From contig NZ_FOJW01000011.1 of the NCBI RefSeq assembly GCF_900112045.1, positions 1 through 64,000 of the forward strand: DNA of 64,000 nucleotides, read 5' to 3'. The notes below the pieces were generated by a model. That model was given only the letters and a program-made list of their open reading frames with translations, ran no database searches and was not told the origin of the DNA. The DNA comes from Lentibacillus halodurans. GTDB taxonomy: Bacteria > Bacillota > Bacilli > Bacillales > Amphibacillaceae. This document shows, one piece after another, positions 19,939 through 59,026 of the stretch. Made by a program: the position numbers and the translations under genes. How positions within the stretch are numbered: position 1 is the stretch's first letter; each line of letters begins with the position of its first letter.

Positions 19939-20388
19939 TTATTTATGATCAATATGCTGCATTTCTTCAGACAGAAATGCTAATAACTCATTTAACGTTT
20001 CTGTCTGATCTCCCGAAAAGTTCGCCAGTACATCACCTAAATATTCCTGCCGCTTCTTGATGACTTCCTCAATAATGGTTCTGCCTTTTGGCAAAATATG
20101 AATCCTGACGACCCGCCGATCACTTGTATCTCTGACTCTCTCAACCAGCTTATTCTTTTCCAGACGGTCTACCAGATCTGTCGTTGTACTGAACGCTAAG
20201 CCATTTTTATTTGAAAGCTCTCCAATCGTCATATCCCCATCAATCAGAAACTGCAGCGCAACAAATTGCGGTGAGGTGATCGGGTAATGATTCAGGATCT
20301 TCCGCCCGTTCTGCTTAATAATGCCCGATATGTAACGCAGTCTCTTTTCAAGCTCGGCAATTGTTTCTGCTGATATTTCATTACTCAA
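19939..20388 (-). CDS. ysmB: MarR-family transcriptional regulator (YsmB)
   Basis: A winged-helix MarR regulator. I place the start at a TTG (20388), with GGGGGG about ten bases upstream, giving 149 residues beginning LSNEISAETIAELEKRLRYI (initiator Met). A longer frame to 20436 lacks a ribosome-binding site. The recognition region is MTIGELSNKNGLAFSTTTDL and the wing is RVRDTSDRRVVRIHI. The ligand and regulon are unknown. It lies upstream of racE and divergent from the gerE region, as in B. subtilis. Confidence 0.9.
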   Translation of the reverse strand: MSNEISAETIAELEKRLRYISGIIKQNGRKILNHYPITSPQFVALQFLIDGDMTIGELSNKNGLAFSTTTDLVDRLEKNKLVERVRDTSDRRVVRIHILPKGRTIIEEVIKKRQEYLGDVLANFSGDQTETLNELLAFLSEEMQHIDHK

Positions 20389-20549
20389 TACGGGTAACCC
20401 CCCAAGGATTCCAATTTGATATCCGTATTTTAACATAACATGACAAAAATCGCAGTTTCCAATTCATTTTGGCAGGGTTTATGACGGACTGTAGAATGCT
20501 TCACATATGGTCTACCGCTATCATATTTAACGTTCCTCAAAATGTGCTT

Positions 20550-20740
20550 ACCATTTGCTCATATTTTCATTCGCTATTCATAACAAAATTAGTTACCCTT
20601 TATCTGCAGCTCATCGACTTCAAGCAGGATTATCATTTGAAAAACATGACCAAATTTGTAAAATAGATCTCCAGCACTTAATAAGAGATAAAAAAACAAA
20701 AGAAATTGACCGGGAAAACTATAAAGTAAAACTTCATTAA
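20550..20740 (+). pseudogene. Decayed duplicate of the gerE promoter and 5' gene
   Basis: This stretch mirrors the real gerE region about 341 bases downstream. The AC (20550), a CATTCGCTA in place of CATATGCTA (20568-20576), the box TTACCCTTtATCTGCAGCTC and a TTATCATTTGAA start region line up nearly base for base. A 24-base in-frame deletion follows the TTG at 20637. Then come TGACCAAA and the translated stretch DLQHLIRDKKTKEIDRE, in another frame, matching gerE FELLVQDKTTKEIAQE. The Shine-Dalgarno is damaged (AAGCAGGA for AAGGAGGG), and a TAG and a frameshift break the frame. It ends before the recognition helix. It is a non-functional tandem-duplication relic. Confidence 0.85.
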
Positions 20741-20890
20741 ACCTAGTTATCATGGTAACGATAACAGTCCTCACATGTGTCTTTTATTTCTGGATCCTTG
20801 ACTCCTACTTCAATAAAAATGGATCCAAAACAAACGAAAATGAAGTTTGCAGTTTAAATGGGTTAGAATACACATTGTATGAAGATACGC

Positions 20891-20917
20891 ACCGATTAAC
20901 CGTATTTTCATATGCTA
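20891..20917 (+). promoter_or_regulatory. Sigma-K promoter of gerE
   Basis: AC at 20891-20892, 16 bases, then CATATGCTA at 20909-20917. This fits the sigma-K pattern AC-N16/17-CATANNNTA, and gerE is a sigma-K target in B. subtilis. The predicted start is near 20925. Confidence 0.78.
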
Positions 20918-20978
20918 ATATTGACTAAATAATTTACCCTTCATCTGCAGCTCTTTGACAGCAAGGAGGGGTTATCAT

Positions 20979-21203
20979 TTGAAGGACAACGAGTACAAAC
21001 CGAAGCAACTATTGACCAAACGTGAAAAAGAGGTATTCGAGCTCTTAGTACAAGATAAAACAACAAAGGAAATTGCCCAGGAATTGTTCATATCAGAAAA
21101 AACTGTCCGGAACCATATTTCCAATTCGATGCAGAAATTGGGTGTCAAGGGGCGATCACAAGCTGTTGTAGAACTTCTCCGAATGGGGGAGTTAAAGCTT
21201 TAG
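20979..21203 (+). CDS. gerE: GerE, LuxR-type regulator of late spore-coat genes
   Basis: From the TTG at 20979 the protein is 74 residues, the exact length of B. subtilis GerE. AAGGAGGGG lies upstream; an earlier TTG at 20955 would put the Shine-Dalgarno inside the gene. Nearly the whole protein is the HTH: LLTKREKEVFELLVQDKTTK, EIAQELFISEKTVRNHI and a C-terminal KGRSQAVVELLRMGEL. It acts in the mother cell on coat genes after sigma-K activation. It is convergent with ysmA, with a shared terminator between. Confidence 0.97.
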   Translation: MKDNEYKPKQLLTKREKEVFELLVQDKTTKEIAQELFISEKTVRNHISNSMQKLGVKGRSQAVVELLRMGELKL

Positions 21204-21205
21204 GA

Positions 21206-21237
21206 AAAACCGACTTTCTTTATAGGAAGTCGGTTTT
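21206..21237. terminator. Bidirectional terminator between gerE and ysmA
   Basis: Perfect 11-bp stem AAAACCGACTT / AAGTCGGTTTT with a 10-nt loop and A/T runs at both ends. Confidence 0.85.
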
Positions 21238-21679
21238 AAATTGCCAGTAATCGTTCTTTCATGGAATCAGTTAATGGTACCGGTTTTCCGGTTTCAGACT
21301 GTATGTATACCATTCTCCCTCGGCCTGTCAAACAGAGTTCACCTTCATCGTTCAATGCCATATAATGGACATCCAGCGACGTGTTCCCGACATGATTCAC
21401 TTTGACATATAACTTCATATCCTCATTAAAATAGATCTGTTTATGATAATCACATTGCAAGTCAGCGACGATGGGCATAGATGAATCGTTATCCCGATTA
21501 TCAAAAAGGTCTGCTGCTTTTAAAAATTCAATCCGTGCTTCTTCAAAATAAATAAATGCCGATACGTTATTGACATGTCCAAACATATCCGTTTCAGAAA
21601 AACGAATGTTGACCGGGATAAAAAATGAAAATTCAGATCGCCATTGCTCCATGTCTTCAATATATGAAATCTTTCTCAC
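21236..21679 (-). CDS. ysmA: Acyl-CoA thioesterase-like hotdog protein (YsmA)
   Basis: A 4-hydroxybenzoyl-CoA-thioesterase-type hotdog protein of 147 residues from the GTG at 21679, which has AGGGAGG eight bases upstream. A longer frame would overlap sdhB and its terminator. The active-site region is RFSETDMFGHVNNVSAFIYF, with the catalytic Asp in the usual ETD-x-x-GHVNN motif. The substrate is unknown. B. subtilis ysmA lies at the same place beside gerE and sdhB. Confidence 0.9.
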   Translation of the reverse strand: MRKISYIEDMEQWRSEFSFFIPVNIRFSETDMFGHVNNVSAFIYFEEARIEFLKAADLFDNRDNDSSMPIVADLQCDYHKQIYFNEDMKLYVKVNHVGNTSLDVHYMALNDEGELCLTGRGRMVYIQSETGKPVPLTDSMKERLLAI

Positions 21680-21698
21680 CAGTATTGCCTCCCTATTG

Positions 21699-21737
21699 AA
21701 AAAATGACCCCCGCCGTTGTCCAGGGCAAGGGTCATT
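21699..21737 (-). terminator. Terminator of the sdhCAB operon
   Basis: AATGACCC/GGGTCATT arms (21730-21737 and 21703-21710), extended inward by GCC/GGC pairing, are followed on the minus strand by a T run at 21704-21699. Confidence 0.85.
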
Positions 21738-21758
21738 ATAGATTCATAGATTCTTAGT

Positions 21759-22523
21759 CTAATGGGCTTCATCACTGCCAAAGAAGTTCTTAAATGCTTG
21801 AATATTAGTAGCACGGTTCATAGCAGCAATTGACGTTGTCAACGGGATACCTTTAGGACATACTTCAACACAGTTTTGTGCGTTGCCGCAGCCCGAAACG
21901 CCCCCATCTTCCATTAATCCTTCCAGGCGTTCACTTGCATTCATCTCACCTGTTGGATGAGCGTTGAACAGACGTACTTGTGAAAGCGCAGCAGGTCCAA
22001 TGAAATCTGACTTATCATTTACATTCGGACATGCTTCAAGGCAAACCCCGCAGGTCATGCATTTAGACAATTCGTATGCCCATTGGCGTTTTTTCTCCGG
22101 CATGCGTGGACCCGGGCCTAGATCATATGTTCCATCGATTGGAATCCATGCCTTAACTTGCTTTAATGCATCGAACATTTGTTCCCGATCAACGAATAAG
22201 TCACGGATGACCGGGAATGTACTCATTGGCTCAAGACGGATCGGCTGCTCAAGCTCATCCACGAGTGCGGCACATGACTGCCGAGCTGTTCCGTTAATGA
22301 CCATGGAGCAAGCCCCGCAGACTTCCTCCAGACAGTTCATATCCCATTGAACCGGTGTTGTGTTCTCTCCATTTGCGTTTACCGGATTTCTGCGTATTTC
22401 CATCAGCCCGGAAATAACATTCATATTTGTTTTATATGGTACTTCAAACGTCTCTTCATAAGGAGAGGAATCCGGGCTGTCCTGACGAGTAATAATAAAC
22501 GTAACAGTACTTTGTTCAGCCAT
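21759..22523 (-). CDS. sdhB: Succinate dehydrogenase iron-sulfur subunit
   Basis: A 254-residue iron-sulfur protein of complex II. The [2Fe-2S] ligands lie in NCLEEVCGACSMVI and the following RQSC (about residues 58-80). The [4Fe-4S]/[3Fe-4S] ligands lie in CMTCGVCLEACPN and GCGNAQNCVEVCPKGIP. It carries electrons from the SdhA flavin to the SdhC haem and menaquinone. It is the last gene of sdhCAB, 15 bases after sdhA. Confidence 0.97.
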   Translation of the reverse strand: MAEQSTVTFIITRQDSPDSSPYEETFEVPYKTNMNVISGLMEIRRNPVNANGENTTPVQWDMNCLEEVCGACSMVINGTARQSCAALVDELEQPIRLEPMSTFPVIRDLFVDREQMFDALKQVKAWIPIDGTYDLGPGPRMPEKKRQWAYELSKCMTCGVCLEACPNVNDKSDFIGPAALSQVRLFNAHPTGEMNASERLEGLMEDGGVSGCGNAQNCVEVCPKGIPLTTSIAAMNRATNIQAFKNFFGSDEAH

Positions 22524-58704: not shown

Positions 58705-59026
58705 ATAAAACGCCCGCCACCTTGCCTTAAAGCAAAGGGACGAGCGCTTAACACGTGGTTCCACCCAATTTCCCGCAAAAAATGCGGCTTCATTAATCTT
58801 TAACGCAGAATATACGCTGCAGCTTACTATACCTTCAACAGCAGAGTTTAAAGGTGGTAATCATTTGCATGCATAGCGGAAGTTTTCAGCCGACGACTTC
58901 CTTCTCTTATCTACCCAATAACCAAACGATCATGTCCTTATCAGCACTGTTACCAGTTATGAGTTTACAGTTCAACTAACATTCAGCAGGTTAAAGCGTC
59001 CGCTGAATAAAATTTTACTATATATA
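58705..59026 (-). promoter_or_regulatory. T-box riboswitch (Thr) of thrS
   Basis: The T-box core TTGGGTGGAACCACG ends at 58754. A terminator hairpin (58748-58711) ends in TTTTATATT. The leader contains ACC followed by A in GATTACCACC near 58858, a candidate Thr specifier; its placement in a Stem I loop was not fully folded. Stem-loops typical of Stem I occupy the first 150 bases. Confidence 0.88.

Follow-up and report, generated by a model that had tools for sequence, protein, structure and literature searches.

Directly upstream of gerE in Lentibacillus halodurans lies DNA that resembles the front part of this gene, and it raises the questions whether a second copy of gerE once resided there, how it came into being, and whether it still serves the cell. 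In the DNA that we analyzed (a stretch of 64,000 nucleotides, hereafter the window), the working gerE gene occupies positions 20979-21203 of the plus strand. It begins with a TTG codon and codes for 74 amino acids; GerE identity is 93-99% in 12 genomes of the genus, and gerE is uninterrupted in all 12 of them. The nearest kin of the source genome place it in a Lentibacillus group. Promoter and leader of the working gene (20885-20978, plus strand) are homologous to those of relatives from about position 20886-20890 onward, and they carry a -35 element (CACC, 20890-20893), a -10 element (CATATGCTA, 20909-20917) and a Shine-Dalgarno region (20963-20971), all on the plus strand. At least four of the six Shine-Dalgarno bases are paired within the leader (20921-20981) in 73 of 88 distinct gerE leaders, and an RNAalifold analysis of gerE leaders gave no convincing common structure. 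At the 3' side of the gene, a terminator-like inverted repeat with 14-nt arms that are 93% complementary (21206-21237, plus strand), which has no entry in our terminator scan, adjoins a gene on the minus strand (21236-21814) that we call thioesterase-like by resemblance.

The first-pass annotation had described the upstream DNA as a ghost copy of gerE, with promoter elements, Shine-Dalgarno region, start codon and early helix-turn-helix codons duplicated about 341 bases apart. This description is borne out by local alignment of positions 20440-20751 with 20752-21260, which pairs 20562-20716 with the gerE promoter, leader and codons 1-35 at 20903-21083; its score of 89.0 was not approached by any of 1000 dinucleotide shuffles, the best of which reached 30.0, and under a looser scheme the same two regions scored 65.5 against a shuffle maximum of 20.0. 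The two copies share 130 of 174 aligned bases (75%) and are spaced 341 bases apart at their 5' end. Of the extent originally claimed, 20550-20740, the presence of the relic stands, but homology to gerE stops at 20716 and runs from the promoter to codon 35 only. It had also been suggested that the whole proposal would fall if identity outside the TTACCC...CTGCAG block were no better than chance. We find that the downstream part of the relic alone, with this block removed, scores 37.5 when the best of 1000 shuffles reaches 16.0, and that the part upstream of the block is weak (14.0, a score reached by 3 of 1000 shuffles). Relatives with a single gerE copy tell the same story independently: from position 20540 on, the relic is 78-80% identical over 102 bases to the gerE promoters of G006, G005, G002, G011 and G007, 73% identical to that of G004, and 68% identical over 177 bases to that of G008. 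A profile of gerE coding DNA gave just 3.0 bits on the relic (E = 0.015). With significant homology to both gerE and its promoter, the plus-strand segment 20562-20716 is, as judged from its sequence, a decayed half-copy of the 5' part of gerE.

The reading frame of this half-copy is broken in several ways that are legible in the sequence and its alignment; the 24-base deletion, a stop and a frameshift had already been listed in the first-pass annotation. From the TTG start at 20637, translation could proceed for nine codons before it meets a TAG stop at codon 10 (20664; the frame spans 20637-20666 on the plus strand). An in-frame deletion of 24 bases lies between 20646 and 20647, and the looser alignment places two further deletions of one base each, one causing a frameshift and the other falling into the Shine-Dalgarno region, a site that is damaged in the relic. 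The promoter is altered as well. Sigma-K promoters carry the -10 sequence CATANNNTA and a -35 element that contains AC. Sequence and alignment assign to the relic the -35 region TTACC (20548-20552, plus strand; TCACC in most relatives), whose AC stands at the proper spacing, and a sigma-K type -10 region at 20568-20576 on the same strand that reads CATTCGCTA instead of CATANNNTA; relative to CATATGCTA of the working copy, CATA has become CATT, precisely the change that had been noted earlier.

Not only individual lesions but also the overall pattern of substitution sets the relic apart from live genes. At codon positions 1 and 2 it is changed at 16 of 55 sites, versus 22 of 560 in eight live copies, each compared with the consensus of the others; these live copies differ at 60 of 280 third positions. 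Split by codon position, the relic departs from the clade consensus at 9/28, 7/27 and 3/26 sites (positions 1, 2 and 3, respectively), a distribution that bespeaks relaxed constraint. Its promoter and leader (20 differences in 100 sites) have decayed to the same degree as its coding part (19 in 81), which is the behavior of a dead copy; the promoters and leaders of the eight live copies, treated in the same manner, differ at 50 of 793 sites in sum. A maximum-likelihood tree built from the promoter and 35 codons (18 rows) places the relic within a nine-row Lentibacillus clade with a support of 100/98, on a branch of 0.34 versus 0.057 for the working copy; its position inside this clade has no resolution. 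Since fourfold-degenerate sites of racE differ between the window and its kin at 0.48-0.67 (eight genomes with a real match), decay of this extent would fit an event within this lineage. In sum of its features the relic thus resembles the pseudogenes that follow tandem duplications, in which one copy is intact and constrained while its neighbor collects indels, a stop and relaxed substitutions, and it appears to be an ordinary remnant of this type that shows nothing to suggest a persisting function. It differs from them in that just the 5' half is present and in that the dead copy sits at the ancestral position.

The latter statement rests on the divergently oriented MarR-type gene (19939-20436, minus strand; family name by resemblance), which we used as a positional anchor. 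The distance from MarR codon 13 to the start codon is 237 nt for the relic and 579 nt for the working gerE, and the gerE start lies 237-249 nt from this codon in G005-G008. Elsewhere in the genus the corresponding values, all obtained by subtraction from tblastn positions with the strand considered, are 265 nt (G004), 319 nt (G003), 341 nt (G002) and 879 nt (G011), and tblastn found no MarR match within the gerE locus of G001, G009 and G010. The long MarR-gerE intergenic region of G011 (locus L004, with a distance of about 879 nt from MarR codon 13 to the gerE start) contains GC-rich DNA whose appearance on visual inspection suggests a repeat. A second line of evidence comes from the flank beside the relic (20437-20561, plus strand), which includes the relic's -35 region. 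We cut 106 nt at equal distance from each of the two start codons and compared them, together with 500 dinucleotide shuffles, with the 11 other genomes of the genus. None of the 500 shuffles reached the score of the relic flank (20437-20542) in G005, G007 or G008, and a single one did so in G006; in the other seven genomes the signal of this flank was weak or not significant (14 to 486 of 500 shuffles reached the score). The flank of the working copy topped all shuffles in none of the 11 genomes and gave a nominal signal in G011 and G005 (5 of 500 shuffles reached the score in each). As both its spacing and its flank match those of several relatives, the relic occupies the ancestral place of gerE, and the working gene therefore runs from a duplicated, displaced 5' end that has been joined to the ancestral 3' end.

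Between the relic and the working gene lies a spacer of 168 nt (20717-20884, plus strand) that is not recognizable as gerE. Its ungapped identity to the expected stretch of gerE amounted to 21-35% at 25 offsets, and the only match of a profile of the gerE 3' half scored -1.9 bits, so that no 3' half is detectable in it; on these grounds we rejected a tandem duplication of the whole gene in which the 3' half had diverged. In 159 genomes of the family, with five candidates scored per genome, the spacer returned only short matches of at most 37 bases. Searches against plasmid and phage sequences gave no match, nor did Rfam up to an E value of 1, and comparison with 11 gin-type stretches yielded a best score of 26.3 bits, inside the range of shuffled controls (22.3-28.2); an origin from a phage, a plasmid or a gin-type insert was set aside accordingly. 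An open reading frame for 58 amino acids (20752-20928) had no Pfam match up to an E value of 0.01, its best non-self match in the 159 genomes covered 40 residues at 35% identity (E = 2e-4, G052), and it was dismissed as a gene because its end overlaps the gerE promoter. Four nucleotides past the end of the relic's homology, the spacer carries 18 nt (20721-20738, plus strand) that agree at 17 of 18 positions with the 5' terminus of a repeat dispersed through this genome. The hairpin body that follows this terminus in the repeat is absent from the spacer, and a full repeat copy was rejected as its source, the match being limited to these first 18 nt.

In the 11 other genomes of the genus we found no counterpart of the relic. 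The gerE-region DNA has one match per genome in 12 of 12 genomes of the genus, and a query with the relic returned the resident gerE locus (eight genomes) or nothing (three genomes) in the 11 others. When the family was searched with GerE, 152 of 159 genomes gave a match at E <= 1e-22, and two genomes, G153 and G080, gave two such matches. The search for relatives with two intact gerE genes that had been recommended came back empty among these 159 genomes, as G153 and G080 each hold one full and one partial copy. A literature search on pseudogenes or duplications of gerE brought up nothing relevant.

Taken together, we regard the relic as a dead partial duplicate of gerE, a non-functional 5' half at the ancestral position, and assign to this reading a probability of about 0.82; it draws on homology, disabling changes, ancestral position, relaxed constraint and absence from 11 congeners. 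The course of events may have been as follows. Promoter, leader and the first 35 or so codons of gerE, or more, would have been duplicated locally in this lineage; the downstream copy would have become joined to the original 3' half and thereby turned into the sole working gerE; in the upstream copy, the reading frame, the Shine-Dalgarno site and a conserved base of the -10 region would then have been destroyed, and this copy would now drift neutrally, presumably without effect on the cell. A plain tandem duplication plus filler DNA is the simplest origin. Since a whole-gene tandem copy would leave a 3' half, and none is detectable, a partial duplication and 168 nt of unexplained DNA are needed; the arrangement probably goes back to a single local duplication, with DNA at the junction that is either filler or a later replacement, and the repeat end so close by points to one additional event at the least.

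Other origins deserve to be weighed against this one. The most substantial among them, a live rival although clearly the less probable one, is a scar left by an element of the gin type: an insertion would have split gerE, recombination at its right end would have restored the gene with a second promoter and 5' half, and later deletion of the element would have stranded the 5' part next to a 168-nt scar, leaving a relic that is equally dead. That elements integrate into gerE is known from gin (PMC5595907), and such a history would account for the missing 3' half without an extra loss. In each of the eight interrupted gerE genes of the family that we fetched, the break follows immediately on the gin core (about codon 49-51), and G153 and G080 display the anatomy of the window in a fresh state: besides a 5' piece whose end lies at this core or barely beyond it, they have a complete gerE with a near-identical promoter and 5' half. 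The relic itself, however, ends at codon 35, 12 codons short of the core; its spacer matches none of 11 gin-type stretches above shuffled controls; gerE is unbroken throughout the 12 genomes of the genus; the core in the window and in seven kin reads TTTCCAAT/C rather than TCAAA; and a recombinase is absent among the five open reading frames scanned in the insert of G153. Considerably less probable is a horizontal replacement, in which the 5' part of the working gerE would have come from another Lentibacillus-like species and the native 5' end would have been stranded. In the working gene, codons 1-35 come closest to those of G008 (four differences), while codons 36-75 come closest to those of G007 and G011 (seven differences each, versus 18 for G008), and for the latter segment groupings with G008 alone, or with G008 and G002, are marginally rejected (p-AU of 0.047 and 0.026). 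Yet the AU test does not reject a grouping with G007 and G011 for codons 1-35 (p = 0.224) or for codons 36-75 (p = 0.278), and none of the forks in the 5' tree is supported. Both segments are very short, moreover, and we chose the groups with the distances already in view. A mosaic working copy is a weak hint, with AU tests that are mixed and mostly not decisive. That the relic is a product of chance or of the assembly is hardly credible. The low score of its upstream part (3/1000 shuffles) and the faint coding profile (3.0 bits) would be in keeping with chance, but the overall alignment exceeds the shuffles by far, relic and flank are independently homologous to relatives, and an assembler would hardly create two copies that are just 75% identical.

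The comparison with gin merits a closer description. In the excerpted account of this element (PMC5595907), its core lies at gerE codons 47-49 and its host gene is gerE of Bacillus cereus ATCC10987. As there, the 5' gerE part in the window is separated from the remainder by other DNA; unlike the arrangement given in that excerpt, the spacer lacks an att core, a recombinase and a 3' stub, and the working gene is whole without excision. A 5' gerE part ending at the core codons 47-49 is not what the window shows, its relic ending at codon 35; the 168-nt spacer is too short to hold a recombinase gene, and the only PF07508 match in the source genome at E <= 0.001 lies on another contig. While excision restores gerE during sporulation in gin-type systems, gerE of the window is already intact. 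In 12 of the 159 family genomes (loci L210-L217 and L220-L222; G043, G044 and G056 included), the best GerE match goes no further than residue 49-53; in one of them, G149, it breaks off where the contig ends, so that the gene may be uninterrupted, which leaves 11. In the eight that were fetched, the break follows the gin core, and TCAAAT stands at the core in 8/8; at one of the loci (L212) a serine recombinase lies between the 5' and 3' gerE parts, which are separated by about 9.7 kb. Interrupted gerE genes in this family thus extend beyond the Bacillus cases that the excerpt names for gin.

The two genomes with a second match are of particular interest in this context. In G153 (L209), an insert of about 11.6 kb separates a 5' piece that ends just past the core from a full gerE downstream, and promoter and 5' half form a direct repeat of 361 bp with 98.3% identity; as no recombinase was found in the five scanned open reading frames of the insert, this insert is of the gin type by its end point only. 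In G080, the 5' piece and the full gene are located on separate contigs (L224 and L225), and they are identical from about -102 to codon 49 except for one base, at the core. Like these loci, the window combines a 5' gerE piece with a full gerE, both with a promoter; unlike the window, G153 and G080 have fresh copies whose pieces end near codon 49-52, and they look as though gerE had been reconstituted following its interruption. Where the interrupted genes read TCAAAT, the window (21114-21128) and seven Lentibacillus kin read TTTCCAAT/C, and CCAAT at the core is likewise present in a small number of uninterrupted genes from beyond the genus, for example in G024 and G039. This silent change at the gin core might hinder integration.

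The first-pass annotation had further raised the possibility that the relic is still active, either by titrating sigma-K or GerE or by giving rise to a short mother-cell RNA; a read-through transcript from a weak sigma-K promoter would be a variant of the latter. We consider any such activity very improbable. In both copies the AC of the -35 element starts 18 nt before the C of the -10 element, so that the spacing is kept, and an excerpted source reports the gap between the two sigma-K elements as 14-16 nt; in addition, the terminator scan lists no site between the relic and gerE. Against these points stands the equal decay of the promoter and coding parts, which argues against both titration and a useful RNA. 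Moreover, the conserved CATA of the -10 region has become CATT, the predicted leader fold has weakened to -3.6 kcal/mol in the relic vs -15.6 kcal/mol, and a single site per genome would make a poor sink. How firmly the -10 sequence is otherwise held can be gauged from 110 gerE loci scanned, the window among them and some species counted twice: 98 carry CATANNNTA in front of gerE, and of the other 12 loci nine are without a match to CATNNNNTA and three have just one, at -130. A literature search for CATANNNTA gave nothing relevant. The suggested roles hence found no support in our data, and a residual regulatory function of the relic is unlikely.

As a decayed duplicate the relic is ordinary, and its possible link to the recurrent interruption of gerE adds slightly to its interest. 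It serves as a natural record that the sole working gerE of this species uses a promoter that has moved, and that the DNA far upstream of this gene is not the ancestral one. It is possible, although we deem it doubtful, that gin-type elements have split gerE time and again, that recombination has each time rebuilt the gene with a second promoter and 5' half, and that the relic in the window represents an old, nearly erased end stage of such a process. If true, splitting, rebuilding and decay would together offer a developmental gene a way to escape from an intervening element and to come under a new promoter, and G153 and G080 would be fresh stages of this cycle. The relic, together with these two loci, makes it testable whether spore-formers rebuild interrupted sporulation genes through duplication of their front halves.

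The ATAAAGTGAAAC repeat whose terminus lies near the junction is widely scattered in this genome. Its 18-nt pattern occurs at 79 sites with at most one mismatch, the site in the window counted, and the reversed control gave 0. We fetched 30 of these 79 sites (L153-L182, with L175 being that of the window): the dispersed and partly tandem repeat starts with ATAAAGTGAAACTTCATTCAGTGG, continues into a hairpin body, and is bounded on either side by ATAAA, as far as the eye can tell. In the spacer, a model built with nhmmer from 31 repeat copies matches at its positions 1-18 only, with 0.4 bits. A literature search for the letters of the repeat found nothing. Its ATAAA ends recall the TTTAT motif that the excerpted description of the B. 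cereus bcr1 group (PMC6542083) gives for BCR elements; the likeness is one of description, and the spacer, unlike the elements described in that excerpt, has the first 18 nt only. Within or beside the repeat, the Bacillaceae-1 RNA of Rfam (RF01690) was detected in two of six loci scanned, and a further fragment of the dispersed repeat lies elsewhere in the window, on the minus strand at 58969-59008 (nhmmer E = 5e-7).
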